Of a stretch of 64,000 nucleotides of DNA, positions 3,596 through 62,280 are shown one piece after another; position 1 is the stretch's first letter; every line of letters starts with the position of its first letter. The translations under genes were made by a program, and so were the position numbers. The stretch is taken from positions 76,226 through 140,225 of the forward strand of contig CADBZI010000013.1 of the NCBI GenBank assembly GCA_902799015.1. The letters are read 5' to 3'. A model generated the notes under the pieces. That model searched no databases and was not told where the DNA came from. It saw nothing but the letters and a program-made list of their open reading frames with translations. The DNA comes from an uncultured Lachnospiraceae bacterium (GTDB lineage: Bacteria > Bacillota > Clostridia > Lachnospirales > Lachnospiraceae).

Positions 3596-3679
3596 GCCTC
3601 CGGCGGATCGCAGCCGCGCTCATAGGAAGGTGCTTCGCACCGAGCGCAGCGCGGCAAGAACGCCGTTGGCGTTCTTGAA
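3596..3679 (+). repeat. 84-bp structured dispersed repeat, copy A
   Basis: One of three 84-bp copies in this window (others at 12182 and 62197), each running from GCCTCCGGCGGATCGCAG to GGCGTTCTTGAA. Predicted fold of the + strand: an 8-bp outer stem (GCCGCGCT 3613-3620 with AGCGCGGC 3648-3655) enclosing a GGTGC/GCACC hairpin (3629-3641), then a 9-bp hairpin AAGAACGCC-GTT-GGCGTTCTT (3656-3676). This copy ends 31 nt before the aldolase start codon, so it should be in that gene's leader. Confidence 0.85.
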
Positions 3680-3710
3680 AGGAGACTCAGCACAATAGGA
3701 GACATAGCAC

Positions 3711-4397
3711 ATGTTAATGGAAGAAGCGAGAAACAAAATTGTGGAATTCGGCAAGCGGATGTCAGCGGACGGCCTGGCGCCGGGGACTGCCGGAAACATC
3801 AGTATCTATGATCCGGAGACAGGCTATATGGCAATCAGTCCGTCCGGCGTTCCGTACGATAAGACGCTGCCGGAGGACGTTGTCATACTGGATCTGGATG
3901 GAAATGTGATCGACGGAGATAAGAAGCCGTCCAGTGAGCACGGCCTGCATGCCGTGTTTTACCGGACAGATCCGGAGGCAAGGGCGGTTGTGCACAATCA
4001 CTCCATGTACTGTACCATTCTTGCGTGCATGGGAGAGCCGCTGCGGTCCGTGCATTACGCGCTTGCGGAAGCACAGTGCAGCGAGATCCCGCTGGTGCCG
4101 TATCACACCTTCGGAACGCCGGAGCTGGCGGACGCTGCCGCCGAGGCGCTTAAGAAGAAAGGCCATGGCCTGATTCTCCAGAACCACGGAATGTGCGCTT
4201 ATGGTCCCACGATCGAGAGCGCTTACGGGCTTGCCCTGACCATGGAATGGTGTGCGCAGGTGCAGTGGCACTGCATGGCCGCCGGAAAGATGAATGTCCT
4301 GACGGATGAGCAGATGGAAGTTGCCATGGAGCACTATAAGACATACGGACAGAAGAAGAGCGACGGCAGCCACACGGGTGGCTACAGTGTTGTGTGA
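3711..4397 (+). CDS. Class II aldolase/adducin family protein, L-fuculose-phosphate aldolase-like
   Basis: A 228-residue zinc-dependent aldolase or epimerase of the FucA/AraD family, cytoplasmic. FucA cleaves L-fuculose 1-phosphate to dihydroxyacetone phosphate and L-lactaldehyde; AraD relatives epimerise L-ribulose 5-phosphate. Conserved elements seen are GTAGNIS near residue 24, PSSEHGLH with the catalytic acid, the zinc-ligand pair in VVHNHSMY and the third ligand in NHGM. Length is normal. It sits alone between the sugar-transporter operon and the FMN-riboswitch unit, and its leader contains repeat copy A. Co-location with a CUT2 importer suggests use of an imported deoxy-sugar or pentose. 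The choice between fuculose, rhamnulose and ribulose phosphate cannot be made here. Confidence 0.88.
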   Translation: MLMEEARNKIVEFGKRMSADGLAPGTAGNISIYDPETGYMAISPSGVPYDKTLPEDVVILDLDGNVIDGDKKPSSEHGLHAVFYRTDPEARAVVHNHSMYCTILACMGEPLRSVHYALAEAQCSEIPLVPYHTFGTPELADAAAEALKKKGHGLILQNHGMCAYGPTIESAYGLALTMEWCAQVQWHCMAAGKMNVLTDEQMEVAMEHYKTYGQKKSDGSHTGGYSVV

Positions 4398-4540
4398 GCG
4401 GGAAACGGATGTCGCAAAGCGTGAAATGTTTGCCAAGGCTGGTAAAAGGTGATATCATCCCCACTGTAGAGGGTGAAACAAAGCTGAAACATTGAAACAG
4501 ACAAAAGCCTTCAAACCCTCGTATTATGAACAATTTCAGT

Positions 4541-4652
4541 CTTCAGGGCGGGGTGAAAGTCCCCACTGGCGGTAACAGTCCGCGAACTGCCACAGGGCAG
4601 CTGATTCGGTGTGATTCCGATACCAACGGTATAGTCCGGATGGAAGAAGATA
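4541..4652 (+). ncRNA. FMN riboswitch (RFN element)
   Basis: The conserved RFN blocks appear in order: AGGGCGGGGTGAAAGTCCCC, ACTGGCGGTAACAGTCCGCGA, GATTCGGTGTGATTCCGATA and ACGGTATAGTCCGGATGG ending in AAGAAGAT. It binds flavin mononucleotide. An intrinsic terminator lies 18 nt downstream and the riboflavin transporter gene follows, the usual arrangement for transcription attenuation when FMN is plentiful. The 143 bp between the aldolase stop and the riboswitch hold nothing else that I recognise. Confidence 0.97.
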
Positions 4653-4670
4653 GCGATCCTGTATGAGAGA

Positions 4671-4704
4671 GCCCAAAGATCTGAGTTCAGGTCTTTGGGC
4701 TTTT
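4671..4704 (+). terminator. Riboswitch-controlled terminator ahead of ribU
   Basis: GCCCAAAGA(T) pairs with GTCTTTGGGC around a short loop and is followed by TTTT. It lies between the FMN aptamer and the transporter start codon, so it is the expression platform. Confidence 0.93.
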
Positions 4705-4766
4705 CTGGATCCGCTTCCATCTCCTGAATCATTGCGGGAGTCCCGCGAAGAAAGGAGAAGAAACCT

Positions 4767-5432
4767 ATGAACATGTCAGGAGAAAACACAGAAAACAGAC
4801 GGCGTGCCGGATCCGGGAGAGCAGCCGGCGTGCAGGCCGGTTCCGTCACCCGGTATCTTGTCTCGGCAGCCATGCTGAGCGCCGTGGCGGTCGTTCTGCA
4901 GTATATTGAGTTCTCGATTCCGATCATGCCGTCCTTCATCAAGCTGGATCTGTCTGACCTGCCGTCCCTGATCGGCGCCTTTGCGATGGGACCTTTGTGG
5001 GGTGTCGCGATTGCGGGAATCAAGAACCTGATCCATCTTCTGGTCTCTCAGTCCGGCGGGGTCGGAGAGCTGGCGAACTTTCTGATGAATGCAGTCTTTG
5101 TCGCGGCAGCGGGACTGATCTATCAGTATCACCGGACCAGGAAGGGGGCGCTGGCGGGCTCTGTGATCGGGGCTGTGATCATGGCATTGGTCAGCGTGCC
5201 GGTCAACTATTTTATCGTGTATCCTTTCTATACGGCCTTTATGCCGATGGAGGCAATCATCGGCGCGTACCAGGTCATTTACCCTGGCATCCAGGATGGG
5301 AACCTGCTTCAGTGCCTGCTGGTCTTTAACCTTCCGTTCACCTTTGTAAAGGCGATGCTGTCGGTTGTGATCGTCATGCTGATCTACAAGAGGATCTCTC
5401 CGATCATCCGCGGAACATCCCGCCGGGGATGA
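4767..5432 (+). CDS. ribU: Riboflavin transporter, ECF S-component RibU
   Basis: A 221-residue membrane protein that binds riboflavin and works with the shared energy-coupling factor module (not in this window). After a hydrophilic 27-residue N-terminus it shows about six hydrophobic segments, with the family-typical IPIMPSFIKLDLSDLPSLIG near residue 53 and GVAIAGIKNLIHLL shortly after. The start has AAAGGAGAAG upstream. Assignment rests on this ECF-S signature together with the FMN riboswitch directly upstream, which also predicts repression when FMN is abundant. The gene appears monocistronic. Confidence 0.95.
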   Translation: MNMSGENTENRRRAGSGRAAGVQAGSVTRYLVSAAMLSAVAVVLQYIEFSIPIMPSFIKLDLSDLPSLIGAFAMGPLWGVAIAGIKNLIHLLVSQSGGVGELANFLMNAVFVAAAGLIYQYHRTRKGALAGSVIGAVIMALVSVPVNYFIVYPFYTAFMPMEAIIGAYQVIYPGIQDGNLLQCLLVFNLPFTFVKAMLSVVIVMLIYKRISPIIRGTSRRG

Positions 5433-5533
5433 CGGTAATCCACCGGATTTTCCACTTTTCCTCAGCAACATCTCTTCCATATGTGTTATGATAACGTTGC
5501 GATTTACGAAATTCAAAAGGATGACGTTAGTTT

Positions 5534-6628
5534 ATGAATGATCTTACTGTCAAAATGGGACGGCCGGTGAATAAGCTGTCCTTGATGCTTGCGGCAATCG
5601 TTGTTGCTGCTGTGCTATCTTTGTGCGCCGGCTGCGGGAAGAAGGAGGTATCCTCTGAGCATACGGATGCGGGATACACGGCGAATGAGGCTTCTGACTT
5701 CCGCAGCGCGGAAGCTTCTTTCCGGGAAGCGGTTGACGCGGGCGAGGATCCGATTCTTGCCTGGCGCGGTCTCGGGATTGCATTGATGGGACAGGCAAAG
5801 TATGAGGATGCGCTGGACGCATTTGACCATGCAGTCTCCTGCACGGACGACAAGATGCCGCAGACGGTCCAGGATCTTCTGCAGTACAGGATTACCTGTC
5901 AGTACCGCCTGAAAGACTATGAGGGCTGCATCAAGACGGGAGAGGAACTGACCAGACTGGATGAAAAGCTGGTAATGGCCTATTACTACATTGGCGCAGC
6001 CCGGCTGAATCTGGGCAATTCGGAGGATGCGGAGGCGAACTTTGACTACGCGGTGTCTCTGCAGCCGGAGGATTATAAGCTTTACCTTGATATCTACAGT
6101 GTTTATGAGGAAGCGAAGCTGTCCGGCGTTGGGGATGAGTACCTGCAGACAGCACTCGGAATTGCGCCGAAGACAACGGAAGACCATTACAATGTCGGAA
6201 GAATCTATTTCTACCTGGAGGAATATGATGAAGCGGCTTCCGCGCTGATCGTGCCGGTACAGGAGCAGTATGAGCCGGCTCTTTCGCTGATGGGGCAGAT
6301 CTATCTTGCGAGAAAGGATTATGACAACGCAAAGGCAACCTATTCGCAGATTCTAAGCCTGAACAGCGAGAGCAAGGATGCTTACAATGGACTGGCGCTG
6401 TGCGCGCTTGCGGTGCAGGATCCCGATGCGGCACTGGACTACATTGCGCAGGGCCTGAGCCTGGACACAGAAGAGGGAAAGCAGGAGCTGTACTTCAATG
6501 AGATTGCCGCCTACGAACAGAAGCTTGACTTCCTGACGGCACGGGATAAGTGCAGGACATATGTTGAGATGTATCCGACTGATGAAGACGGCGTTAAGGA
6601 AATGAAGTTCCTGAATACGAGAGATTGA
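5534..6628 (+). CDS. Tetratricopeptide-repeat lipoprotein
   Basis: A 364-residue predicted lipoprotein with a lipobox (LCAGC, Cys about residue 34) after a hydrophobic signal segment, followed by roughly eight TPR-like helical pairs through to the C-terminus. TPR proteins are protein-interaction scaffolds; no catalytic motif is visible and the partner is unknown. The start is uncertain. ATG 5534 has an AAAGG about 13 nt upstream; ATG 5555 and GTG 5567 are in-frame alternatives that give a more standard signal-peptide length. A TG-T-TATGAT extended -10 at 5484-5492 may drive it. The gene stands alone between ribU and the convergent cspA. Confidence 0.82.
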   Translation: MNDLTVKMGRPVNKLSLMLAAIVVAAVLSLCAGCGKKEVSSEHTDAGYTANEASDFRSAEASFREAVDAGEDPILAWRGLGIALMGQAKYEDALDAFDHAVSCTDDKMPQTVQDLLQYRITCQYRLKDYEGCIKTGEELTRLDEKLVMAYYYIGAARLNLGNSEDAEANFDYAVSLQPEDYKLYLDIYSVYEEAKLSGVGDEYLQTALGIAPKTTEDHYNVGRIYFYLEEYDEAASALIVPVQEQYEPALSLMGQIYLARKDYDNAKATYSQILSLNSESKDAYNGLALCALAVQDPDAALDYIAQGLSLDTEEGKQELYFNEIAAYEQKLDFLTARDKCRTYVEMYPTDEDGVKEMKFLNTRD

Positions 6629-6636
6629 ACAAAACA

Positions 6637-6656
6637 CCCCGCTCCGGAGAGCGGGG
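6637..6656. terminator. Bidirectional terminator between the TPR lipoprotein gene and cspA
   Basis: A perfect 8-bp stem CCCCGCTC/GAGCGGGG with a CGGA loop lies between two convergent genes. On the - strand it is followed by a T-containing tail (GTGTTTTG), which suits cspA best; on the + strand the T run is lacking. Confidence 0.7.
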
Positions 6657-6716
6657 AAGACTGTTCAATCGTGTCTCTTATATAGTCAGAATATATATAA
6701 AAGAATCAGGTTATGA

Positions 6717-6914
6717 TCAAAGCTTGGTAACATTAGAAGCCTGCATGCCGCGCTGACCTTCCGTCAGATCATACTCGACCGCCTGGCCTTCATCCAGCGT
6801 CTTGAAGCCTTCGCCCTGGATTGCGGAAAAATGAACGAATACGTCCTTCCCGTCCTCACCGGTGATAAAGCCATAACCTTTTTCTGCGTTGAACCACTTA
6901 ACTGTACCCTTCAT
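6717..6914 (-). CDS. cspA: Cold-shock protein, CspA family
   Basis: A 65-residue single cold-shock domain that binds single-stranded RNA and DNA and acts as an RNA chaperone. The RNP-1 motif KGYGFITG and RNP-2 motif DVFVHFSAI are both intact. The start at 6914 ([13 protein letters not shown]) is set by a GGAGGT ribosome site and by the family length; upstream Met codons in the same frame would add an unrelated tail. A strong promoter on the - strand lies about 70-100 bp upstream, leaving a leader of about 60 nt. Cold-shock genes often carry regulatory leaders, but I see no defined fold here. Confidence 0.97.
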
Positions 6915-6983
6915 TACGGGACCTCCATAAATGAAAAAAACAAGGATTGAACCGGCTTTGGAGCAATCCAGATATCGGGATTT

Positions 6984-7013
6984 ATTATATCGCCCGATTG
7001 CATAATGTGTCAA
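6984..7013 (-). promoter_or_regulatory. Sigma-A-type promoter of cspA
   Basis: On the - strand TTGACA (7008-7013) is separated by 18 nt from TATAAT (6984-6989), both consensus-perfect. Start of transcription is expected near 6977. Confidence 0.85.
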
Positions 7014-7145
7014 CCGTTAAATACATCAATCTTATCCTTATTTCACGAATGAGCAAAGCTTGTATATGCACCGCTTGTGCATTTTCGGTAAGATTCCACG
7101 CCGGCGCGAAGAGCGGTTTGGTTGGGCAGAAAGGAGAGCGCCAGA

Positions 7146-8498
7146 ATGGGAGACAGCAGAATAAAAACGGAAAGGATCCGGATCCCGCGTTTTGCGGCGA
7201 AGGTGATTGACAGACTGCATGCGCTCGGGTATGAGGCGTGCATTGTGGGAGGATGTGTGCGTGACAGCCTTCTCGGATATACACCGCAGGACTGGGACGT
7301 TACAACCTCTGCAAGGCCGGAGCAGATCCGTGAGGCGTTTGAGAGGACCATCGATACCGGGATCGCGCACGGGACGGTGACAGTGCGCATGGACAATGAG
7401 AGCGTGGAGGTCACCACATACCGGATTGACGGGAAGTATGCGGATCACCGGCATCCGGATCAGGTGCGTTTCACCTCCAGCCTGGAAGAAGATCTGAAGC
7501 GAAGGGACTTTACCATCAATGCGATGGCATACAATGACCGGGATGGACTGATCGACCTGTTTCACGGTACGCAGGATCTGGAGGATGGAATTGTCCGGTG
7601 CGTCGGGGACGCGAAGGCGCGTTTTACCGAGGATGCGCTCCGGATCTTCCGGGCGGTCCGGTTTTGTGCGAAGCTGGGCTTTGTACTGGATCCGGCAACG
7701 AAACAGGCGGCACAGGAGCTTGCGCCTTCCCTGCAGTATGTCAGCCAGGAACGGATTCGCGCAGAGCTGGAAAAGCTGCTGATCTCTCCGCATCCGGAGA
7801 TGATCCGCCTTGCGTGGGAGTGCGGGATCACCCGGATCATCCTTCCGGAGTTCGATGCCATGATGGAGGCGGTGCAGAACAATGCGCACCATAAGATCAC
7901 AGTGGGAGAGCATACCATCCGGACTATGTGTGCCTGTGAAAGTGACCGCATTCTCCGGCTGACGATGCTGCTTCACGACAGCGGGAAGCCGGCCTGCCAG
8001 ACAATTGATGACAACGGCGTGTATCATTATCATGGCCATGCTGCGCCGGGTGCCGTGATCGCGCGTCAGGTGATGGAGCGGCTGAAGTATGACAAGGCGA
8101 CCGAGCGCACGGTTGTGCATCTGATCCGGAATCATTCGCTGTATCCGGAGCTGACGCCGGAGGGTGTCAGGCGGGCTGTTGTACAGCTCGGAGAGGATCT
8201 GTTTCCGGTCTTTTTGAAGGTAAAGCGGGCAGACATCGGAGGCCAGAATCCGGAAGTGCAGGAGAAAAAGCTCCGGTATATGGATGAGGTGGAAGCGATC
8301 TACCGGCAGATTCTCGAACGAGGAGACTGCCTGTCCCTCAAAGCGCTGGCAGTGACGGGGGATGACCTGATTGCGGCCGGCATCCCAAAGGGCAAAAAGA
8401 TCGGCACGGTTCTGCAGGCGCTTTTGGAGGAGGTGCTCTCAGATCCGGAGCGGAATCAGAGAGAGGTCCTGATAGAGCGGGCCAGAGAGCTTCGCTGA
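7146..8498 (+). CDS. cca: CCA tRNA nucleotidyltransferase with HD domain
   Basis: A 450-residue enzyme that adds or repairs the 3'-terminal CCA of tRNAs from CTP and ATP. The nucleotidyltransferase head shows VGGCVRDSLLG, the metal-binding DWDVTT and RRDFTINAMAYN. The tRNA-binding middle is followed by an HD phosphohydrolase domain (HKITVGEHTIRT, LLHDSGKP, HYHGH) near residues 255-305. I prefer ATG 7146, which has AAAGGAG about 9 nt upstream, over a TTG at 7122. It is the first gene after a divergent cspA. An 8-bp dyad GCAGTGAC/GTCACTGC just after the stop lacks a T run. Confidence 0.95.
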   Translation: MGDSRIKTERIRIPRFAAKVIDRLHALGYEACIVGGCVRDSLLGYTPQDWDVTTSARPEQIREAFERTIDTGIAHGTVTVRMDNESVEVTTYRIDGKYADHRHPDQVRFTSSLEEDLKRRDFTINAMAYNDRDGLIDLFHGTQDLEDGIVRCVGDAKARFTEDALRIFRAVRFCAKLGFVLDPATKQAAQELAPSLQYVSQERIRAELEKLLISPHPEMIRLAWECGITRIILPEFDAMMEAVQNNAHHKITVGEHTIRTMCACESDRILRLTMLLHDSGKPACQTIDDNGVYHYHGHAAPGAVIARQVMERLKYDKATERTVVHLIRNHSLYPELTPEGVRRAVVQLGEDLFPVFLKVKRADIGGQNPEVQEKKLRYMDEVEAIYRQILERGDCLSLKALAVTGDDLIAAGIPKGKKIGTVLQALLEEVLSDPERNQREVLIERARELR

Positions 8499-8535
8499 TG
8501 GGCAGTGACACGTCACACCCTGACCGTATGTGAAC

Positions 8536-8564
8536 TTGTCACTGCAGGGCAGAAAGGGTATACT
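8536..8564 (+). promoter_or_regulatory. Probable promoter of hisS
   Basis: TTGTCA (8536-8541), a 17-nt spacer and TATACT (8559-8564) match a sigma-A promoter and lie 45 bp before the hisS start. I looked for a T-box leader here and found none. Confidence 0.65.
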
Positions 8565-8608
8565 TGTTTTGGCATCCGGCAAACGCGGATGCAGGGAGGC
8601 AGAAGAAT

Positions 8609-9922: not shown

Positions 9923-10003
9923 ATCAGAAACAGAAAACCGGAACTTTTTGAACCCTGCAGCCATGATCGCAGGGAAGCATATGGGAAAATGACAGGAGGC
10001 AGT

Positions 10004-11740: not shown

Positions 11741-11755
11741 CACGGCGCCTATCGC

Positions 11756-11783
11756 TTGACAAACATAGAGATATGTGTATAAA
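11756..11783 (+). promoter_or_regulatory. Promoter of the HU gene
   Basis: TTGACA (11756-11761), 16-nt spacer, TATAAA (11778-11783), 63 bp before the HU start codon. Confidence 0.75.
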
Positions 11784-11846
11784 TTAAGTCGATATGTATA
11801 TTGCCATTGCAGGCAGAAATAAAAAGAATAGAAGGAGTATAATCTC

Positions 11847-12119: not shown

Positions 12120-12143
12120 GACTGATTCAGAGATGGAATCTAT

Positions 12144-12174: not shown

Positions 12175-12181
12175 CATCTCA

Positions 12182-12265
12182 GCCTCCGGCGGATCGCAGC
12201 CGCGCTCAGAGGAAGGTGCTTCGCACCGGGTGCGGCGTGGTAAGAACGCCGTTGGCGTTCTTGAA
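12182..12265 (+). repeat. 84-bp structured dispersed repeat, copy B
   Basis: Same length and boundaries as copy A. Against A it has six changes, five of them in the segment of the 3' outer arm (12230-12246). The three that fall in the outer stem turn A-U or G-C pairs into G-U wobbles, so the + strand RNA fold is kept while the - strand fold would be broken. It lies directly after the HU terminator and ends 19 nt before the rqcP start. A leftover ATCTCA precedes it, matching one edge of the inverted-repeat element seen before copies A and the 35.5-kb variant. Confidence 0.85.
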
Positions 12266-12284
12266 TATGGGAGGAGGTGGCAAT

Positions 12285-12524
12285 ATGAGGCTTGACAAAT
12301 ACCTCAAGGTGTCCCGGCTGATCAAGCGCCGCACGGTCGCGAATGAAGCCTGTGATACGGGAAGGGTAACGATTAACGGCAAGGTGGCAAAGGCGTCCGC
12401 CCAGGTAAAGGCCGGCGATGTGATTGAGATTGCATTTGGCTCTCGCAGCGTGAAGGCGGAAGTGCTCAGCGTTGCTGAGACTGTGCGGAAAGAGGAGGCA
12501 CAGGAGCTGTTTCGGTATCTCTGA
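12285..12524 (+). CDS. rqcP: RNA-binding S4 domain protein, RqcP (YabO/Hsp15-like)
   Basis: A 79-residue S4-domain protein. RqcP works with RqcH on obstructed 50S subunits, stabilising tRNA during alanine tailing in ribosome quality control. The S4 motif begins at once (MRLDKYLKVSRLIKRRTVAN) and continues with GRVTINGKVAK and GDVIEI. ATG 12285 follows GGGAGGAGG; an upstream in-frame start at 12216 would translate through the repeat and is unlikely. The leader consists almost entirely of repeat copy B, so this gene may be influenced by that structure. Confidence 0.93.
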   Translation: MRLDKYLKVSRLIKRRTVANEACDTGRVTINGKVAKASAQVKAGDVIEIAFGSRSVKAEVLSVAETVRKEEAQELFRYL

Positions 12525-12620: not shown

Positions 12621-12643
12621 AAATTGATGAGGGGAAGGGAACG

Positions 12644-15069: not shown

Positions 15070-16914
15070 TTGAACAAAGGAGCGAGAGGAACCGGCCTTT
15101 ATATTATGCTGGGGCTGCTGCTGATCCTGCTGATCTTTGCGCTGCGCGACAGCTTTAACGGACGCAGTGATATCACAACAAAGGAACTGGAGTCCATGCT
15201 GGAAGACGGCAGCGTTTCCATGGTAGAGGTCGTTCAGAATGAAGAGGTTCCGACCGGATCATTAAAGATCACGACGACGCAGAACGATCAGCTGTCTCTG
15301 AATGTCACGGATGTGAATCAGGCAGTGGCGATGGTGAGCGCATATGATGTGACGGTCCGGGTGCAGGATGTTTCCAGACGCAGCACTCTGTTTTCGACTT
15401 TCCTTCCGGTGCTTCTTACCGGGCTCATGGTGCTTTTCCTGTTTATGATGATGAATCGGCAGCAGGGCGGCGGAGCCATGATGATGAATTTCGGCAAGAG
15501 CCGCGCGCGGATGTTCACGCCGGACGCGAAGAAGATTACGTTCGCGGATGTCGCCGGACTGCAGGAGGAGAAGGAGGAGCTGCAGGAGATTGTCCAGTTT
15601 CTCTCGAGTCCGGAACGGTTCCTGAACGTAGGTGCGAGAATCCCGAAGGGGGTTCTGCTGGTCGGCCCTCCCGGGACGGGTAAAACGCTGATGGCCAGAG
15701 CGGTTGCCGGAGAGGCGGGGGTACCGTTTTTCTCCATTTCGGGTTCTGACTTCGTGGAAATGTTTGTCGGTGTCGGAGCCAGCCGTGTGCGCGACCTGTT
15801 CGAGGAAGCGAAGAAGAATCAGCCCTGCATTGTCTTCATCGATGAGATAGACGCAGTCGGGCGCCGCAGAGGCACCGGCATGGGCGGCGGCCATGATGAG
15901 AGAGAGCAGACGCTCAACCAGCTTCTTGTGGAGATGGACGGGTTCTCGGAGAACCAGGGCATTATCGTGATGGCGGCGACCAACCGGGTCGACATTCTGG
16001 ACCCCGCGATTCTCAGAGCGGGAAGATTCGACCGGCAGGTGCATATCGGCCGCCCCGATGTCAGAGGCCGGCTGGAGATTCTCAAGGTACATTCCAGAAA
16101 GAAGCCCCTGGCGGATGATGTGGATCTGGAGACCATAGCACGGACCAGCGCCGGCTTTACCGGGGCGGATCTCGAGAACCTCATGAATGAAGCGGCAATC
16201 TGTGCGGCGAAGGACAGCCGGGCGTTCCTGAAGCAAAGCGACATTGAGCAGGCGTTTATCCGGATCGGCATCGGCTCGGAGAAGCGCAGCCGCCTGATTT
16301 CCGACAAGGAGAAGCGCATTACCGCCTGCCATGAATCCGGGCATGCCATCCTGTTCCACCTTCTTCCGGATGTCGGTCCGGTTCATACGATCTCGATTAT
16401 TCCGACCGGACACGGCGCTGCGGGATATACCATGCCGCTTCCGGAAGGCGATGAGATGTTTGAGACAAAGAGCAGAATGCAGCAGACCATCGTTGTCACG
16501 CTGGGCGGACGTGCCGCGGAATCTCTGGTCTTCGGAGATGCGGAGATCACGACCGGAGCTTCTCAGGACATCAAGCAGGCGACGGCCATTGCCAGAGCGA
16601 TGGTGACCAAATATGGTTTCTCGGATCGTCTCGGACTGATCAACTATGAACAGAGCGAGGAAGAGATCTTTATCGGGAAGGACCTTGCCCATACGCGCCA
16701 GTATGGGGAGCGGGTTGCTTCCATTATCGATGAGGAAGTCAAGAAGCTGATTGATGAAGCCTATGAAACGGCACGCAGACTGATTGCGGAAAACCGGAAG
16801 ATCCTGGATCGCTCGACGCTGCTTCTTCTGGAAAAAGAGAAGCTCAGCCGCGACGAATTCGAAGCATTGTTTGAAACGCCGGCAGCATCGGCGTCAGAGG
16901 CGGATCTGATCTAA
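15070..16914 (+). CDS. ftsH: ATP-dependent zinc metalloprotease FtsH, first copy
   Basis: A 614-residue membrane AAA+ protease that removes damaged membrane and regulatory proteins. Two transmembrane segments flank a small extracytoplasmic domain (about residues 6-24 and 112-130). The AAA module has Walker A GPPGTGKT, Walker [12 protein letters not shown] and the second-region-of-homology [20 protein letters not shown]. The M41 zinc site is HESGH (His about 421). The start is TTG with GAGGAG about 9 nt upstream, six bases after hpt. A second ftsH lies at 50900; this copy lacks that gene's repetitive tail and has a short acidic end. Confidence 0.96.
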
Positions 16915-35447: not shown

Positions 35448-35474
35448 ATCTCAGTGGGGTGCCCCCACTGAGAG
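35448..35474 (+). repeat. Compact ATCTCAGTGGGG hairpin, companion of the 84-bp repeat
   Basis: ATCTCAGTGGGG is followed after three bases (TGC) by CCCCACTGAGAG, giving an 11-bp stem. It is the same arm as at 3509-3592, without the inner material, and again sits directly 5' of a repeat-family member. Confidence 0.75.
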
Positions 35475-35476: not shown

Positions 35477-35530
35477 GCCTCCGGCGGATGCCGCGCGCTC
35501 GGGCGCAGGTCTGCCGGTGGCAGACTTGAA
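35477..35530 (+). repeat. Short variant (54 bp) of the structured repeat
   Basis: It opens with the same GCCTCCGGCGGAT and closes with the same CTTGAA as the 84-bp copies, but the middle is shorter and the terminal hairpin is GTCTGCC-GGT-GGCAGAC in place of AAGAACGCC-GTT-GGCGTTCTT. The stem sequence is replaced while hairpin, 3-nt loop and flanks are kept. The next 75 bp up to the -10 at 35609 show nothing I recognise. Confidence 0.7.
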
Positions 35531-50899: not shown

Positions 50900-53002
50900 A
50901 TGAATGAGAACAATCAGGGCAATCATAACGGAAACGGCGGGGGCAATCAGAATCGGAATCATTCTTCGATTCTGATCTTTCTCGTGGTTACGCTGGTTAC
51001 ACTTGTGCTGATGAGCTTTTTCAACAGGATGATGAACGACTCCACCTCCATGGAGATCTCCTATGACCAGTTCCTGGACCTTCTGGAGCAGAATCTGGTG
51101 GAATCTGTCACCCTGGATTCGGATAAGCTGACCGTTGTAACCAAAAACCAGTCACTGGCAAGCCAGGGAATCGAGATGACCTACTACACAGGCCGGATGG
51201 CGGATCCCGATCTTGTAGAGCGGCTGGACAAGGCGAACGTAGAGTTTAAGCAGGAGATTCCGGACAACACAACCAGCCTGATCCTGAACGTCCTCCTGAG
51301 CTTTGCGCCGCTGATCCTGATCTGGATCCTGATGGGCGTTGTGCTGCGCAGGATGTCCGGCACAGGCGGAATGATGGGAGTCGGAAAGAGCCGTGCGAAG
51401 ATGTATATGCAGTCCGAGACAGGCGTCACCTTCAAGGATGTTGCCGGCCAGGACGAGGCGAAGGAATCTTTGCAGGAAACGGTGGAATTCCTGGAACATC
51501 CGGATAAATATGCCGAGATCGGCGCCAAGCTGCCCAAAGGCTGTCTGCTTGTCGGACCTCCCGGTACCGGTAAGACGCTGCTGGCCAAGGCTGTGGCAGG
51601 AGAGGCGCATGTGCCGTTTTTCTCACTGACCGGTTCGGACTTCGTCGAGATGTTCGTAGGCGTCGGCGCAAGCCGTGTGAGAGACCTTTTTGATGAGGCA
51701 AAGAAGAATGCGCCCTGCATCATCTTTATCGATGAGATCGATGCCATCGGCAAGAGCAGAAACTCGGGCGGCTATGGCGGAAATGACGAGAGAGAGCAGA
51801 CGCTTAACCAGCTTCTGTCAGAGATGGACGGCTTCGACACTTCGAAGGGCCTTCTGATTCTGGCGGCGACCAACCGTCCTGAGGTTCTGGATCCGGCTCT
51901 TTTGAGACCGGGACGCTTCGACCGCAGGGTAACGGTGGAGAAACCGGATCTGCAGGGCAGGATCGACGTGCTGAAGGTTCACTCAAAGGATGTGCATATG
52001 GACGAGACCGTCGATCTGAAGGAGATTGCGCTGGCGACCTCCGGAGCAGTCGGATCGGATCTTGCAAATATGATCAATGAGGCCGCCATTCTTGCGGTCA
52101 AGAATCACCGGGCAGCGGTGAGCCAGAAGGACCTGTTGGAGGCAGTGGAACTGGTACTGGTCGGCAAGGAAAAGAAGAACCGCATCCTGTCCCAGGAGGA
52201 GCGCAGGATCGTATCTTACCATGAAGTCGGTCACGCTCTTGTTTCTGCGCTGCAGAAGGATTCCGAGCCGGTGCAGAAGATCACCATTGTTCCCAGGACC
52301 ATGGGAGCTCTGGGATATGTCATGAATGTGCCGGAGGAGGAGAAGTACCTCAATACGGAGAAAGAGATCCGGGCGATGCTGGTCGAGTTTGTCGCCGGAC
52401 GCGCCGCGGAGGAGATCGTCTTCAATACCGTTACGACCGGTGCGGCAAATGACATCGAGAAGGCAACGAAAGTTGCCAGAGCGATGGTGACACAGTATGG
52501 AATGTCCGAGAAGTTCGGACTTGCTCAGCTGGAATCGCCGGCAGCCCAGTTCCTGGATGACGGCCGGATCATCATGAACTGCTCAGACGCTACGGCAGCG
52601 CAGGTGGATCAGGAGGTAATCAAGATCCTGAAGCAGTCGTATGATCAGGCAAAGCGGATTCTGTCCGAGCATCGCAAGGCGATGGATGAGATCGCGGCGT
52701 TCCTGATTGAGAAAGAGACCATCACCGGCAAGGAATTCATGGAGATTCTTCACAGGATCGAGGGGGATCAGGTATCTGCAGCCCATCAGGAAGGGCGGAT
52801 TGTGGAGCGGCCTTATGAGGCCGAAACCAAAGCCGCGCAGCCTGAGACACAGAGCAAGGCCGCGCAGCTTGAGGCAGAGAGCAAGGCCGCGCAGCTTGAG
52901 GCAGAGAGCAAGGCCGCACAGCCCGAGGCACAGAGCAAGGCCGCACAGCCTGAGGCAGAAAAGGAAGCCGCGCAGCCTGAGGAAGATGCCGAAGCTGAGT
53001 GA
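50900..53002 (+). CDS. ftsH: ATP-dependent zinc metalloprotease FtsH, second copy
   Basis: A 700-residue membrane AAA+ protease, paralogue of the one at 15070. After an Asn/Gly-rich N-terminal tail, TM1 (about 25-43), an extracytoplasmic domain and TM2 (about 130-150) lead to Walker A GPPGTGKT, Walker [12 protein letters not shown] and the zinc site HEVGH (His about 441). The last 58 residues are six near-perfect 9-residue repeats of the SKAAQLEAE type, absent from the first copy. It belongs to a transcript with the cytidylate-kinase-like gene. The two FtsH proteins could form separate or mixed hexamers. Confidence 0.96.
52826..52987 (+). repeat. 27-bp tandem repeat inside ftsH, six units
   Basis: Six in-frame units of 27 bp encode [18 protein letters not shown] (twice), [18 protein letters not shown] and KEAAQPEED. 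The first and last are more diverged. Such repeats can expand or contract by slippage and would vary tail length without a frameshift. Confidence 0.93.
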
Positions 53003-53068
53003 TTGGCAGCGACCCGCGCTTCACCTTCTCAGCGAGGCGGAGTCGTTCACATTTTATTGGAAGAGAAC

Positions 53069-53785: not shown

Positions 53786-53840
53786 GGAAGCCTGCCTGAG
53801 ACCGCAGGATTCCGGAAGGAACATGTTCATGAAAGAATGG

Positions 53841-53909
53841 CTGCCGCATAGACCATACATCGCATGAAGTTATTTCTCTCATGCGGGTTCGGCTCTATGC
53901 GGCAGTTTT
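53841..53909 (+). terminator. Terminator after the PAP2 gene
   Basis: CTGCCGCATAG pairs with CTATGCGGCAG, enclosing a CGCATGA/TCATGCG hairpin, and is followed by TTTTA. It separates the ftsH/PAP2 unit from uvrC. Confidence 0.8.
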
Positions 53910-53924
53910 ATACCGGAGAGAAGG

Positions 53925-55919: not shown

Positions 55920-55997
55920 GCTTTTTTTGCTACTATTTATGGATGCAATACAGTATAGTGTCATCTTGTCTGCGTGCTGTCTGAAAGAGGATCATTT

Positions 55998-56951: not shown

Positions 56952-56967
56952 GGGAGAAGAAGCGGCT

Positions 56968-57903
56968 ATGAAAAAGTATTGCTTTGGAATCGATGTCGGC
57001 GGCACCACGATCAAGTGCGGACTTTTCAGTACGGACGGAAACCTTCTCGATAAATGGGAGATCACGACCAGAACGGAGGAGAACGGAGTCCATATTCTCC
57101 CGGATATTGCGGCGGCAATCAATCAAAAGATCGAGGACAGAGGCCTCACCAAAAATGAGATCGAAGGCATCGGACTGGATATTCCCGGACCGGTCAACGA
57201 AAAGGGCGTCTGCATGCTTGCGGTGAATCTTCACTGGGGGCAGGTGAACATTGTCCGGGAGATGGAGAAGATGACCGGCATACGCACCAAGGCGCTCAAT
57301 GACGCAAATGCGGCAGCGCTCGGAGAGTGCTGGAAGGGCGGCGGCGCCGGACATAAGAATCTGATCATGGTAACGCTGGGAACCGGAATCGGCGGCGGTG
57401 TTGTCGTGGAAGGCAAGGTAATTGCCGGCGCGCATGGCTCCGGCGGCGAGATCGGACATGTCCATGTCACCGAAGAACTGAACGAACCGTGCAACTGCGG
57501 AAATGTCGGGTGTCTGGAGCAGGTTGCGTCCGCGACCGGCATTGTCCGGCTCGCGAAGATGCAGCTGGATCAGAATCCCGATCAGCCAAGTGTGCTGCGC
57601 GGAAAAGCATTTACCGCGAAGGATGTATGGGATGCGGTGAAAGCAGGAGATGAGGCAGCGGATGCCATCGCCGAGAAGTTCGGATTGTATCTGGGAAGAG
57701 CGTTGGCTGCCTTTGCCTGTGTGACGGACCCGGAGATCTATGTGATCGGCGGAGGGGTCTCCAAGGCAGGAAACGTAATTCTGGACTATGTGCAGAAGTA
57801 TTACCGGCAGTATGCCTTCCCGGGCTGCAAGGACGCGGCATTCGCGCTGGCTACCCTTGGGAATGACGCAGGCATCTACGGAGCAGCGAAGGTTGTCCTG
57901 TAA
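56968..57903 (+). CDS. ROK family glucokinase
   Basis: A 311-residue ATP-dependent sugar kinase of the ROK family, most likely glucokinase. The N-terminal phosphate loop DVGGTTIKCG, the substrate-binding DIPGPVN and the GTGIGGGVVVEGKVI segment precede the ROK signature with the zinc ligands CNCGNVGC. The catalytic Asp is in LNDANAAALGE. RBS is AGGGAGAAG. Its position after hprK fits entry of glucose from maltodextrin breakdown (GH13, MalQ) into glycolysis. Specificity for other hexoses is not excluded. Confidence 0.93.
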   Translation: MKKYCFGIDVGGTTIKCGLFSTDGNLLDKWEITTRTEENGVHILPDIAAAINQKIEDRGLTKNEIEGIGLDIPGPVNEKGVCMLAVNLHWGQVNIVREMEKMTGIRTKALNDANAAALGECWKGGGAGHKNLIMVTLGTGIGGGVVVEGKVIAGAHGSGGEIGHVHVTEELNEPCNCGNVGCLEQVASATGIVRLAKMQLDQNPDQPSVLRGKAFTAKDVWDAVKAGDEAADAIAEKFGLYLGRALAAFACVTDPEIYVIGGGVSKAGNVILDYVQKYYRQYAFPGCKDAAFALATLGNDAGIYGAAKVVL

Positions 57904-58022
57904 CGGAGCCGGTATTTCAAGTACACCATCGTTATACTTGTTCCCGACCATGGCATCCGCCGGAAGAGAGAATTCCGATGCCGTGTCTGCCGGAGGCTAA
58001 TTGGATAATGGAGGAAAAGAAC

Positions 58023-58124
58023 ATGAGAAGACGCAACAAAAAGCAGCAGACAATCGCAATTATCATCGTAGTGATTCTGGTAGCTGCCATGCTGTTCTCC
58101 CTGATCCCGGCATTTCTGCTGTAA
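58023..58124 (+). CDS. 33-residue single-helix membrane peptide
   Basis: A short ORF with a strong ribosome site (GGAGG, 8 nt before ATG). It encodes a very basic N-terminus (MRRRNKKQQ) followed by one hydrophobic helix (TIAIIIVVILVAAMLFSLIP). Its TAA is immediately followed by GGAGAG, the ribosome site of the next gene, whose GTG starts 12 bp later. The close coupling and the intact Shine-Dalgarno support translation. I do not recognise a family; small basic-TM peptides of this type are common in Bacillota and often of unknown function. Confidence 0.75.
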   Translation: MRRRNKKQQTIAIIIVVILVAAMLFSLIPAFLL

Positions 58125-58136
58125 GGAGAGAAGAAC

Positions 58137-59672
58137 GTGAAGAGAGGAACCTATCGAAGAGCAGTCCTGGCAACTTTTGCCCTGGCGGGACTGCTTTCCT
58201 TCCATACGCAGGCAGCAAAGCCTGTGGCCTTAGCTTCTGACACGACGATCGCCAATGGCGTGCAGGTGGAAGGCGTTGACCTGTCCGGCATGACACCGGA
58301 ACAGGCAAAGGCGGCACTCCAGGCGAAGGCAGACGCGCTGGCGTCCACACCGGTCAATCTGCGGATGGGGGAGAATATCATCACCACTTCCCTTGCGGAG
58401 CTCGGGTATACCTGTACGAATCTGGACATCGTCGACTCTCTCGTCCCGATCGGGAAGAGCGGAAACATCGTAGAGCGCTACAAGGAGCAGAAGGATCTGG
58501 AGAATGAGACCGTGCAGTACGCGCTGGACTTTACCGTGGATCCTTCCAGAGTACAGGCATTTGTGCAGAACTGCAGCGTTTACAATACGGATCCGGTAGA
58601 AGGAGAGCTTCTGGTCGGCGACGATGGCTATCCGTATGTGGAAGGCGGGACGAAGGGGATTACCCTGAAGCCGGAAGAGTCGGCAGAGATTGTCAGACAG
58701 GCGATTGAATCCTGGACAGGCGGGGACATTACGGTGGATCTTGTCTGTGAAGAGACAAGCCCGGAGGTGTCCTATGAAACGCTGGCACAGGTGAAGGATA
58801 TTCTGGGGATGGCGACGACGGATTACTCGGCATCCTCCGGAAACCGCGCAATCAATGTGGAAAATGGATGTGCTTTGATCAACGGGACGCTGCTGTGGCC
58901 GGGAGACGAGTTCTCGGTGACGGATGCCGTTACTCCGTTTTCCGCGGAGAACGGATATATGCCAGCCCCCACGTATGAGGAGAACCGTACCATTGACTCC
59001 TACGGAGGAGGAATCTGCCAGGTATCCACGACGCTGTACAATGCGGCGCTGAAGGCGGAGATGGATATCACCGCGCGGTCAAACCATACGATGATGGTGA
59101 CCTATGTGGAACCCTCCAAGGATGCTGCCATAGCGGAAGGCGTTATGGACATGCGGTTTGTGAACAATACAGACGCCCCGATCTATATTCAGGGCGGATG
59201 CCATGGCGGACAGATCACATTTATCATCTATGGCCATGAGACACGGCCGGAAAACCGGACCCTTGAGTTTGAGAGCCGGACGATTGCGACGATGGATGCA
59301 GACGGATACTCTCTGTACCCGGATGCGACACAGCCTGTGGGATACATTGCACAGACGCAGTCTCCCCATACCGGATGCCAGGCACAGCTGTGGAAGCATA
59401 TCTATATCGACGGCGTGGAGACGGATGAGGTTCTGGTCAATGAAAGCTATTATCAGTCCGTCGGGACCATCTATTCCGTGGGTGTGATGACCGATAACAC
59501 GTCTGTGCAGCAGGCACTTTACGGGGCGATCGGGTCAAATAACTTAGATGCGGTACAGCAGATCATCCGGACCGGAACCGCCGCGGCGCAGCCGGCCCAG
59601 GGACAGAATCAGACCGCCGGCGACGTGGATGACAACATGCCGCAGGGGCAGGATGTGACGATCTATAACTGA
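58137..59672 (+). CDS. VanW family protein with PG-binding-4 domain
   Basis: A 511-residue exported protein. A signal peptide (residues 1-26) leads into a peptidoglycan-binding-4 type domain (SGMTPEQAKAALQA, about 45-230) and the VanW domain (about 260-400) with DSYGGGICQVSTTLYNAAL. VanW proteins occur with some vancomycin-resistance clusters and in many Clostridia outside them; the function is unknown. The start is GTG, 12 bp after the small membrane peptide's stop. The C-terminus is a Gln/Ala/Asp-rich tail. Confidence 0.92.
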   Translation: MKRGTYRRAVLATFALAGLLSFHTQAAKPVALASDTTIANGVQVEGVDLSGMTPEQAKAALQAKADALASTPVNLRMGENIITTSLAELGYTCTNLDIVDSLVPIGKSGNIVERYKEQKDLENETVQYALDFTVDPSRVQAFVQNCSVYNTDPVEGELLVGDDGYPYVEGGTKGITLKPEESAEIVRQAIESWTGGDITVDLVCEETSPEVSYETLAQVKDILGMATTDYSASSGNRAINVENGCALINGTLLWPGDEFSVTDAVTPFSAENGYMPAPTYEENRTIDSYGGGICQVSTTLYNAALKAEMDITARSNHTMMVTYVEPSKDAAIAEGVMDMRFVNNTDAPIYIQGGCHGGQITFIIYGHETRPENRTLEFESRTIATMDADGYSLYPDATQPVGYIAQTQSPHTGCQAQLWKHIYIDGVETDEVLVNESYYQSVGTIYSVGVMTDNTSVQQALYGAIGSNNLDAVQQIIRTGTAAAQPAQGQNQTAGDVDDNMPQGQDVTIYN

Positions 59673-59691
59673 TGAAAGAAAGGACAATGCC

Positions 59692-60174
59692 ATGAGGGAG
59701 AAAATCCTTAATCTTCTGGAGCGCAATTCCAGGATGACGCCGGCTGAGATTGCCGTCCTGCTCGGATCGAGCAGTGAAGTGATCGCGGCTGAGATCAGGA
59801 AGATGGAGCAGGAGAACATTATCTGCGGCTACAATACACTCATCGACTGGGACAAGGCGGGTTCCGATGCCGTGACGGCACTGATCGAGGTGAGAGTCAC
59901 CCCGCAGAGAGGGCAGGGCTTCGATAACATCGCGGAGCGGATCTACAACTATCCGGAAGTGCAGTCGGTCTACCTGATCTCAGGCGCATACGATCTGCTC
60001 GTCATTCTGGAGGGCAAGACGCTGAAGGAAGTATCCGAGTTCGTATCGAGCAAGCTGTCCACACTGGACACGGTGCTCTCGACGGCAACGCATTTTATCC
60101 TGAAGAAGTATAAGGATGACGGCATCATCTTTGAGAGAAAGAAAAAGGATGAGCGGATGAGCATCATACCGTGA
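59692..60174 (+). CDS. Lrp/AsnC family transcriptional regulator
   Basis: A 160-residue regulator with an N-terminal helix-turn-helix (ILNLLERNSRMTPAEIAVLL, then SSEVIAAEIRKM) and a C-terminal RAM ligand-binding domain (VTALIEVRVTP to the GAYDLLVILEG strand). Family members sense amino acids and assemble into octamers. The aminotransferase gene starts 13 bp downstream, so it probably controls or is co-expressed with that gene. The cognate amino acid is unknown. Confidence 0.95.
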   Translation: MREKILNLLERNSRMTPAEIAVLLGSSSEVIAAEIRKMEQENIICGYNTLIDWDKAGSDAVTALIEVRVTPQRGQGFDNIAERIYNYPEVQSVYLISGAYDLLVILEGKTLKEVSEFVSSKLSTLDTVLSTATHFILKKYKDDGIIFERKKKDERMSIIP

Positions 60175-60187
60175 GGGAGAAAGAACG

Positions 60188-61375
60188 ATGAAGGAGTTGT
60201 CTGTGAGAAATGTACTCTCCGCGAAGGCGGACAGTCTGAAACCGTCGGGGATCAGGAAGTTCTTTGATATCGTAGCGGAGATGGATGATGTGGTGTCGCT
60301 GGGTGTCGGAGAACCTGATTTTGATACACCCTGGGCGGTGCGGGATGAGGGCATCTACACGCTGGAACGGGGCAAAACCTTCTATACCTCTAACGCGGGT
60401 CTGATGGAGCTGCGCAAAGAGATCACGGTATTCCTGAAGAAGCGCACAGGGGTTTCCTATGATCCGGTACATGAGTGCCTGGTAACGGTGGGCGGTTCGG
60501 AGGCGATTGACCTGGCCTTCCGCGCCATGTTCAATCCGGGGGATGAGGTTCTGATCCCGGAGCCCTGTTATGTTTCCTATACGCCGTGCGCGATCCTTGC
60601 GGACGGTGTGCCGGTACCGATTCCGCTTCAGGAAAAAAATGAATTCCGCCTGACGGCCGGGGAGCTGGAAGAACATATCACGGAGAAAACAAAGATCCTG
60701 GTTCTTCCGTTTCCGAACAATCCTACGGGAGCTGTCATGCGCAGGGAAGATCTCGAGGCGGTGGCGAAGGTATGTCTGGAGCACGATCTTTATGTCGTGT
60801 CAGATGAGATCTACTCCGAGCTGACCTACACCGGAGAGGATCATGTTTCCATCACGCAGATTCCGGGGATGAGAGAGCGGACCATCCTGATCAACGGTTT
60901 CTCGAAAGCCTTTGCCATGACCGGCTGGAGATTGGGATATTGCTGCGGACCGCAGGAGATTCTGTCCGTCATGACCAAGATCCATCAGTTCGCGATCATG
61001 TGCGCGCCGACCAACAGTCAGTACGCGGCGACGGTTGCCCTGCGGGATTGCTATGGAGAGGTTGAAAAGATGCGGGAGGCATATAATCAGAGAAGACGCT
61101 TCCTGCTGCATTCCTTCCGGCAGATGCATCTTCCCTGCTTTGAGCCCTTCGGCGCGTTCTATGTATTTCCCTGCATCAAGGAATTCGGTATGACCGCGGA
61201 AGAATTCGCGACGAAGCTGCTGGAGGAACAGCGCGTTGCGGTTGTTCCCGGAGACGCATTTGGGGCGAGCGGAGAAGGCTATATCCGCATTTCTTACGCG
61301 TATTCTCTGGATGCTCTGAAGGAAGCCGTCGGAAGACTGGAAACATTCGTTGCGAAGCTGAGAGAGCATACCTGA
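60188..61375 (+). CDS. Class I/II pyridoxal-phosphate aminotransferase
   Basis: A 395-residue aminotransferase of fold type I. PLP anchoring is visible in NGFSKAFAMTGWRLGY (Schiff-base Lys), with the NNPTGAVM substrate/PLP loop, DEIYSEL and the C-terminal Arg in YIRISYAYS. The SVGEPDF-type start (GVGEPDFDTPW) places it with aspartate/aromatic aminotransferases (AspC/PatA group). Specificity cannot be fixed. It follows the Lrp/AsnC regulator, a frequent pair in Clostridia. RBS GGGAGAAAG. Confidence 0.94.
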   Translation: MKELSVRNVLSAKADSLKPSGIRKFFDIVAEMDDVVSLGVGEPDFDTPWAVRDEGIYTLERGKTFYTSNAGLMELRKEITVFLKKRTGVSYDPVHECLVTVGGSEAIDLAFRAMFNPGDEVLIPEPCYVSYTPCAILADGVPVPIPLQEKNEFRLTAGELEEHITEKTKILVLPFPNNPTGAVMRREDLEAVAKVCLEHDLYVVSDEIYSELTYTGEDHVSITQIPGMRERTILINGFSKAFAMTGWRLGYCCGPQEILSVMTKIHQFAIMCAPTNSQYAATVALRDCYGEVEKMREAYNQRRRFLLHSFRQMHLPCFEPFGAFYVFPCIKEFGMTAEEFATKLLEEQRVAVVPGDAFGASGEGYIRISYAYSLDALKEAVGRLETFVAKLREHT

Positions 61376-61391
61376 GAAAGGAGCGCTTCGT

Positions 61392-61574
61392 ATGGGACAG
61401 GTAGATCCAAAGCTGCTGGAGATGGCAGAGGTGTTTCATATGCCAAAGAGCGCCCGGATGAAATATATCATCCTTCCCGCAAAGATGCCCGCCCTGTCCA
61501 GAATGCTTCATAAAACCGGAAAGACAGCGGCACAGGGCACTCCCGGCAAGGAGCAGAAAGGCGCCGGCAGGTGA
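61392..61574 (+). pseudogene. Remnant of an ABC transporter permease
   Basis: A 60-residue ORF with a good ribosome site (AAAGGAG). Residues 4-36 (DPKLLEMAEVFHMP, then KYIILPAKMPAL) match the cytoplasmic EAA loop of NitT/TauT-type permeases, the region that contacts the ATPase, but no membrane helix precedes or follows. The remaining residues are low-complexity (Gly/Lys/Ala-rich). It sits 17 bp after the aminotransferase and 31 bp before an ATPase gene with decayed motifs. I read it as a relic, though a retained small peptide is possible. Confidence 0.6.
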
Positions 61575-61605
61575 AAAAACACCGCAGCAGGAGGAGCAGG
61601 TACAG

Positions 61606-62190
61606 ATGACCATACAGCTAGAGAATATCTGCAAGTCAGTCGCAGGACAGAAGGTTCTGGAGAATGTCAATTGGGAGATCGGCTCGGATGACTGCTTCCT
61701 GCTCACGGGGCCGGAGGGCAGCGGCAAGACGATGCTGCTTCGGCTGATCCTCGGCCTGGAGAAGCCGGACAGCGGCAGCGTGAACCTGCTTGGTGATTAT
61801 AAGTATGCCTCCGTGAATGCCGGAGTAGTGTTTCAGGAGGACCGGCTGTGCGAGCAGTTCTCCGCCATCGAGAATGTCGCCATGGTCAATGAGCGTCTGT
61901 CCGCGATGGTCGCGGAGGAGGAGCTGGTGAAGTTTCTGCCCTCCGACAGGCTGAGCCTTCCGGTCAGTGCGCTGACGCCTCTGGAACGGCGGTTGGTTGT
62001 GATGATCCGCGCCTGCATCATCCCCTCCGACATCCTGCTCCTCGACGAGGTACTGCGCGGGATGGACGATGCACTCAGAAAGAAAGTCGTTTCATACATC
62101 CGGGACAAAGCCGGACATAAGGGAATCGTCTTTGTGCAACGGGATGACAAAGGGCTGGAATTCTGCAGACGGTTTGCGCTGGAAGGCTGA
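61606..62190 (+). CDS. Degenerate ABC transporter ATPase
   Basis: A 194-residue ABC ATPase homologue (NitT/TauT-like). The Walker A GPEGSGKT and Q-loop VFQEDRLCEQ are intact, but the signature LSGG(M/Q) is replaced by ALTPLERR, Walker B reads LLLDEVLRGMD (Pro lost after DE), and the H-loop His appears replaced (FVQRDDKG for FVTHD). The helical and C-terminal parts are also short. Such a protein should bind but hardly hydrolyse ATP. Together with the permease relic upstream this looks like a decaying transporter operon. The ribosome site GGAGGAG is still good. Confidence 0.8.
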   Translation: MTIQLENICKSVAGQKVLENVNWEIGSDDCFLLTGPEGSGKTMLLRLILGLEKPDSGSVNLLGDYKYASVNAGVVFQEDRLCEQFSAIENVAMVNERLSAMVAEEELVKFLPSDRLSLPVSALTPLERRLVVMIRACIIPSDILLLDEVLRGMDDALRKKVVSYIRDKAGHKGIVFVQRDDKGLEFCRRFALEG

Positions 62191-62196
62191 GTCAAA

Positions 62197-62280
62197 GCCT
62201 CCGGCGGATCGCAGCCGCGCTCAGAGGAAGGTGCTTCGCACCGAGCGCAGCGCGGCAAGAACGCCGGAGGCGTTCTTGAA
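62197..62280 (+). repeat. 84-bp structured dispersed repeat, copy C
   Basis: Differs from copy A at three positions: one base before the GGTGC hairpin and two bases of the 3-nt loop of the terminal hairpin (GTT to GGA). All stems are identical to A. It lies directly after the degenerate ATPase and before a terminator. Confidence 0.85.

Follow-up and report, generated by a model that had tools for sequence, protein, structure and literature searches.

What kind of sequence is it that recurs, 84 nt long and nearly unchanged, in gaps between unrelated genes of a single stretch of bacterial DNA? The stretch, hereafter the window, comprises 64,000 nt of contig CADBZI010000013.1 (assembly GCA_902799015.1, positions 76,226 to 140,225) from an uncultured Lachnospiraceae bacterium, and the initial annotation of its sequence had described the repeat as a dispersed element under selection for RNA structure. 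Following the element through its own genome, its relatives and wider samples of the family and the class, we found that its copies are many, dispersed and partly modular, and that the fold is real, strongly structured and no artefact. We consider it likely that the copies make up a family of structured, short, non-autonomous interspersed elements of the Lachnospiraceae, most likely a new one, which resembles the REP (repetitive extragenic palindromic), BOX and bcr repeats in general kind. One shape is kept while most stem letters change, which suggests small mobile elements that are recognised by shape.

The consensus begins with the linker GCCTCCGGCGGAT and continues with a 3-bp lower stem, a bulged A, a 9-bp stem (P1), a one-sided bulge (AGNGGAA), the hairpin P2 and a 10-bp hairpin (P3). 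P1 differs by genome, reading GCCGCGCTC/GAGCGCGGC in the window type, GTGCTGCGC/GCGCAGCAC in genomes G001 and G010, and CGACCGCGC/GCGCGGTCG in G005 and G009. Alignment A2, made with MAFFT without the structure, holds 378 pair cells in 27 pairs; 97.4% of these cells were paired, 13 of the 27 pairs had changed on both sides, and 16 cells carried two-sided changes compared with 1.9 (standard deviation, sd, 1.3) upon shuffling, none of 500 shuffles reaching any of five measures. Slid controls of A2 were 26-49% paired, values that are partly low because the structure was drawn from those sequences. Two further alignments were fitted to a covariance model; the pair counts leave out A3, an alignment of 90 matches up to E 1. 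A4, from the genus (87 matches, 84 of them distinct, out of 90 loci), had 93.4% of its cells paired, 23/27 pairs changed on both sides and 440 cells with two-sided changes vs 140 (sd 8.8) shuffled, with slid controls at 29-47%. A5, from 28 new loci of 22 other genera (29 matches, 28 distinct), had 97.1% of cells paired, all 27 pairs changed on both sides and 224 such cells vs 55 (sd 6.1), with slid controls at 30-46%. While the stems changed on both sides, the unpaired linker, the bulged A and the one-sided bulge stayed: in A5 conservation was 0.71-1.00 in the linker, 0.97 at the bulged A and, within NGGAA of the bulge, 0.93-1.00 for GAA and 0.71 for the preceding G, with P1 columns as low as 0.43. 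The selection on structure proposed in the initial annotation is thus strongly supported by paired cells and two-sided changes, both in the unfitted A2 and in the fitted A5.

The window holds the following copies and parts:

3596..3679, + strand: copy A, 84-nt core (covariance model 101.3 bits, E 9.7e-17)
3596-3608, + strand: linker of copy A, GCCTCCGGCGGAT
3609-3611/3651-3653, + strand: lower stem of copy A, with a bulged A at 3612
3613-3621/3642-3650, + strand: P1 of copy A, with one C.A mismatch
3622-3628, + strand: one-sided bulge of copy A
3629-3633/3637-3641, + strand: P2 of copy A
3655-3664/3668-3677, + strand: P3 of copy A
3509..3595, + strand: predicted 5' domain (P0) of copy A, an outer stem of 3509-3521 with 3580-3592 enclosing inner hairpins, followed by AAA (RNAfold of 3501-3679)
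12182..12265, + strand: copy B, core without an intact 5' domain (96.9 bits, E 6.2e-16), with four G-U substitutions
62197..62280, + strand: copy C, core (102.1 bits, E 6.8e-17)
62187..62196, + strand: CTGAGTCAAA before copy C, similar to how the 5' domain ends in other copies (as CTGAGATAAA in copy A)
35477..35530, + strand: fourth copy (44.6 bits, E 2.1e-6), of a GCC/GGC lower-stem subtype, much of P1/P2 missing
35448..35473, + strand: 5' hairpin of the fourth copy, ATCTCAGTGGGGTGCCCCCACTGAGA
57916..57967, - strand: fifth copy, weak and probably degenerate (23.2 bits, E 0.017), P1/P2 largely missing

Copies A, B and C lie where the initial annotation had placed them. Their shared + orientation says little within the window because 53 of its 57 predicted genes are on that strand, and two copies had been missed: the fourth, and the weak one on the minus strand, which sits in a gap bounded by predicted genes at 57903 (end) and 57978 (start). 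The outer stem, first drawn with 8 bp, has 9 bp in the consensus, standing on the 3-bp lower stem with its bulged A. Between copies A and C only 3 of the 84 positions vary, and none of them is paired: one sits in the bulge and two in the P3 loop. Copy B departs from copy A by six changes, the five already reported in the 3' arm segment and a sixth in the bulge. Four of the five arm changes, one more than had been counted, turn Watson-Crick pairs into G-U (T-A>T-G, G-C>G-U twice, C-G>U-G), the additional one being at the base of P3; the fifth turns the C.A mismatch of A and C back into a C-G pair. Copy A forms the 3' part of a larger unit, 3509-3679, representing a long form of the element. Copy A ends 31 nt before the ATG at 3711 and copy B 19 nt before the ATG at 12285, just as first recorded. 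Copy C begins 6 nt past the stop codon (62190) of a gene for an ABC-type (ATP-binding cassette) ATPase and is followed by a terminator-like hairpin at 62290-62320. The preceding CTGAGTCAAA overlaps that stop codon, and BLAST similarity to other copies starts at 62187; it may be a remnant of the 5' domain, against which speaks a gene of G010 that also ends in GGCTGAG with no element behind it. The idea of an ABC gene whose end is provided by copy C was dropped because the G010 gene ends alike.

The number of copies was far above chance, as BLAST gave 28 matches in the own genome (draft assembly, 2.6 Mb, 168 contigs, 85% completeness); six of these matches extended over 83-84 nt at >=93% identity. 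Among 41 relatives BLAST gave matches in 8, all of one genus, and a first covariance model (R1) found matches in 13 of 19 genomes of that genus, with five matches in G003. With model R2, built from A4, 130 matches appeared in 23 of 150 family genomes, belonging to 23 of 149 genera, and none in the other 127; the largest count was 30 in a single genome, G044. The check proposed by the initial annotation, a search for copies in the genome and its relatives together with a covariance model, thus revealed many copies with strongly covarying stems. Across the class, only the own genome matched among 291 genomes, under stricter filters and with at most 15 candidates scored per genome; nine other family genomes in that draw were without a match. 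Phages, plasmids and viral contigs gave no match to exact patterns or to one 120-nt query. Further weak model matches were seen at L249 2795-2886 (33.1 bits) and L296 311-357 (30.8 bits), in loci fetched for other reasons.

A covarying fold with conserved unpaired motifs, strongly co-directed with genes, is also what a cis-regulatory RNA would look like, i.e. a riboswitch, attenuator or protein-binding leader controlling the gene behind it, and of the 78 copies followed by a gene in their own direction, 30 stop 8-39 nt short of its predicted start. The identity of the neighbouring genes speaks against this reading. The window's four clear copies are flanked by unrelated genes with no constant association, namely those for a periplasmic binding protein and an aldolase (copy A), hup (HU) and an S4-domain gene (copy B), an ABC ATPase and a permease (copy C), and a Mur ligase and DnaB_2 (fourth copy). 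A controlling leader would also fit poorly with a distribution in which 127 of 150 family genomes lack any match and one has as many as 30, or with copy B having no model counterpart in 17 relatives. In agreement with the earlier statement that the element fits no known RNA class, an Rfam scan of the window at cut-off found no family on the copies and detected only a flavin mononucleotide (FMN) riboswitch (RF00050, 111 bits) at 4535-4655, before gene 4767-5432; in eight diverse loci scanned at E up to 1 no match fell on any core. Below the cut-off, two weak matches (Leu_leader, SorY) covered the 5' hairpin of L213 on the minus strand. On this evidence we regard a cis-regulatory RNA as very unlikely.

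That copies have been inserted is supported by their number, their patchy spread and the site of copy B. The gap between hup and the S4-domain gene was readable in 17 relatives and none had a model match in it; two weak model matches in these loci lie elsewhere. In G002 (L247) a degenerate family element, below the reach of the model, was recognised by eye in this gap directly behind the hup terminator. For copy A, near-identical flanks were found only in G002:C90 and G008:C35 (L031, L055), and there the element is present too. The flanks on these contigs are 96-99.5% identical to the window vs 76-78% at the hup locus, and the contigs therefore look like near-strain bin carry-over or recent transfer; both being rows of A2 and A4, they were not counted as independent conservation. 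Terminator-like hairpins were found within 140 nt upstream of 27 of 116 copies compared with 5 of 116 in a mirrored control. Insertion behind terminators was nevertheless dropped as a target rule, since the distances scatter from 4 to 105 nt. In G059 the element was found at two places, each time with tnpA of an IS605-like element on one side and tnpB on the other; an element that is part of an IS605 transposon was rejected, the arrangement being seen in G059 only.

Long copies of about 175 nt carry a 5' hairpin domain, closed by a long stem, ahead of the core. Directly against the linker stands a hairpin of 9 or more net bp in 42/86 copies of A4 and 21/29 of A5, compared with 6/115 flanks shuffled letter by letter. 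By eye, 13 of 20 fetched G044 copies are of this form, which runs CTCAG..., inner hairpins, ...CTGAG, linker, P1/P2 and P3 over about 175 nt and falls into two subfamilies; 14 hold the inner hairpin motif, and in the remaining fetched copies the 5' domain is shorter or absent. Upstream sequence like the 5' domain of copy A was recognised by eye in other copies, e.g. L007, L012, L022 and L029. Variation in the modules was likewise read by eye. At L007 1418-1552, L067 1501-1635, L016 1501-1624, L131 and L161 a second hairpin module, whose one-sided bulge is of GTTTA type and whose stems differ among copies, lies as an insert between P1 and P3 or replaces the linker as GACCGAAGCGGAGC. P3-like hairpins occur alone, in some cases apparently inside the arms of terminator-like hairpins, or doubled, in L068, L027 and L083.

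The unit of G001 and G010 has a length of 192 nt and closes with a further hairpin. Its ends are 16-nt imperfect terminal inverted repeats (TAAGGAAACACTGATT vs TAGGGAAACGCTGATT), and internally deleted copies retain both of them. Such ends raise the alternative of a miniature inverted-repeat transposable element (MITE) of a DDE insertion sequence, whose terminal inverted repeats would be cut in double-stranded form, the folds then being a by-product of inverted repeats. Short, non-coding copies that keep both ends when internally deleted, as in G010, are indeed what MITEs and IS605 derivatives have in common with the element. Over the family as a whole we saw no general terminal inverted repeat: by eye, the ends of G044 copies have only about TTCAA/TTGAA (~5 nt) in common and copy A shows no clear inverted repeat between its two ends. 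Nor did the transposases searched (Y1, besides reverse transcriptase) include a matching one. Moreover, the internal stems P1 and P2 also change on both sides, few columns are as conserved as the unpaired motifs, and no target-site duplication was seen by eye, and we consider a MITE origin improbable. Searched by the 3' end, many copies in G001, G010 and G012 retain that end only. This had been considered as proof of reverse transcription by 5'-truncation, a claim that was dropped because BLAST with the 192-nt unit also gives many copies with the 5' part only, as well as internally deleted ones.

To which strand the structure belongs was read from gene orientation and from the base pairs. Among 116 copies, 64 lie between two genes co-directed with the element and 13 between two opposite ones (p 3e-9), and the others in convergent (16) or divergent (13) gaps, within predicted genes (4) or where a flank is lacking (6). 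An earlier, overlapping set of 145 copies, obtained from 174 matches by merging those with identical flanks (matches below 75% identity left out of pair counts, L046-L054 left out as duplicates), gave 69 with the genes, 21 against, 22 convergent, 15 divergent, 11 in genes and 7 without a flank. The outcomes named in the initial annotation as refuting it were largely absent: the stems are not randomly disrupted, and few copies lie within predicted genes (11/145; 4/116). Copies do occur both ways relative to genes, with a strong bias. Changes on a single side of a pair gave G-U more often than A-C in the 145-copy set (115 vs 66 cells; 56 vs 43 as distinct changes), in A2 (11 vs 7) and in A4 (95 vs 58). 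The + strand folds more stably than the minus strand in 9 vs 4 copies of A2, 59 vs 19 of A4 and 18 vs 7 of A5, a difference to which loop composition can add. For copy B the predicted energies are -42.5 kcal/mol on the + strand and -31.3 kcal/mol on the minus strand; for A and C the strands are about equal. The claim that pairing is kept for the + strand alone is thus moderately supported by the G-U vs A-C counts and fold energies, and this strand evidence fits RNA and single-stranded DNA alike.

Several points weigh against a family of mobile elements recognised by their folded shape. The copies are related, so that cell counts and p values are not independent, and A4 and A5, fitted to the model, lean towards it; we judge this bias minor because of the effect size, the slid controls and the unfitted A2. 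In A4, 2/500 shuffles reached the number of pairs changed on both sides and in A5 5/500 reached the number of pair types, each being one of the five measures, and in A5 the G-U vs A-C strand test was null (11 vs 12). The orientation counts rest on a gene caller that applied the window's codon usage to all genomes, and the bias could follow replication instead of transcription. No target-site duplication was recognised by eye in copies of the 192-nt unit or at the copy-B site. An empty site for copy C was not demonstrable in relatives because its two neighbouring genes matched at different places. Finally, no mobiliser was found among Y1 transposases and reverse transcriptases, other transposases, DDE included, lying outside the search. 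This search covered 23 genomes, several of them incomplete, with 17 carriers of the element. Y1_Tnp (PF01797) was unmatched in eight carriers (G000, G010, G001, G012, G016, G148, G175 and G123), RVT_1 (PF00078) likewise in eight (G000, G001, G012, G009, G016, G175, G114 and G113), and five (G000, G001, G012, G016 and G175) had neither.

The Y1 results bear also on whether the copies are palindromes of the REP type, mobilised by a Y1 tyrosine transposase (RAYT or TnpA) that acts on single-stranded DNA. Bulged hairpins beside conserved unpaired bases, strand polarity and a place in gaps between co-directed genes are shared with REPs as portrayed in PMC3733652, and in G059 the element adjoins a Y1 gene. 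Besides the eight carriers lacking a Y1 match, five genomes with no element match (G006, G018, G022, G046 and G058) do have Y1, and no element was found in 12 plus 29 fetched transposase and reverse transcriptase loci, 19 of the 29 being Y1. By reading, neither GTAG nor CGTC occurs in the 84-nt consensus. Also, the long RAYT-like genes have other short repeats alongside (by eye), and we hold movement of this kind to be doubtful. Y1 transposases and reverse transcriptases were both rejected as mobilisers for want of a consistent association with carriers, and so was a group II intron or other retroelement, PF00078 being unmatched in 8 of 17 carriers, G000 and G175 included, in genomes that are partly incomplete. 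The RAYT-like Y1 genes just mentioned have frames of 254-283 aa in other family genomes (L274, L268, L266, L276), and the repeats flanking them include, by eye, GGGGACGGGG or AAGAACACGTCCC. Repetition of another kind occurs in the window itself, where 27-nt tandem repeats (52789-53004) lie at the 3' end of gene 50900-53002, of which a 300-nt stretch is 76% identical to a stretch in gene 15070-16914.

Bacteria commonly carry small structured repeats, and for most of these neither the mode of movement nor the level of recognition is settled. BOX repeats are modular (boxA/boxB/boxC). Literature searches, which included the core sequence and covered few subscription journals, returned no recognised description of the present family. 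Among known repeats, REPs are short hairpins dispersed between co-directed or convergent genes, with an unpaired tag that is conserved and complementary stems that come in alternative versions (PMC3733652). This design is common to REPs or REPINs and the element. The latter differs in its length of 84 to ~175 nt, its several helices and a conserved unpaired part consisting of GCCTCCGGCGGAT plus the one-sided bulge; it has no GTAG/CGTC tag and, in genomes that are partly incomplete, was not seen in the Y1 loci fetched, G059 with its element between tnpA and tnpB being the exception. The BOX, RUP and SPRITE repeats of Streptococcus pneumoniae are described in PMC3049150 as small, interspersed and extensively folded repeats, which are regarded as parasitic and at times transcribed. 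Compared by description and not by sequence, they are similarly interspersed, structured and organised; their host belongs to another family, and here one structural plan recurs in 23 of 149 genera. The repeats bcr1-bcr18 of the Bacillus cereus group are intergenic; some of them resemble MITEs, some conserve a secondary structure, and about half lie in transcripts (PMC3446304). Again by description rather than sequence, they combine mobility with RNA structure as we propose for the present elements; they differ in belonging to the Bacillus cereus group.

Since complementarity in the stems is better preserved than their sequence, we infer that the Lachnospiraceae elements would be spread by a trans-acting factor recognising the folded strand, in the form of either RNA or single-stranded DNA. 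An element that has landed next to a gene, on either side of it, is probably carried in mRNA as a structured segment of the untranslated region. A bolder reading, that the elements are a new class of bacterial mobile element, propagated via folded RNA or a single strand by a host or mobile factor that would recognise shape and not sequence, and thereby a counterpart to short interspersed nuclear elements (SINE-like) with a ~175-nt unit spread family-wide, we regard as a tentative and rather unlikely one. The persistence of one structural plan in 23 of 149 sampled genera despite the turnover of its stems provides unusually rich natural covariation, and together with the fixed unpaired motif this covariation offers a handle to look for a binding partner. 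In the family sample, the covariance model picks out 130 places spread over 23 genomes, and the repeat family would be a clean test case for spread as folded RNA versus spread as single-stranded DNA.

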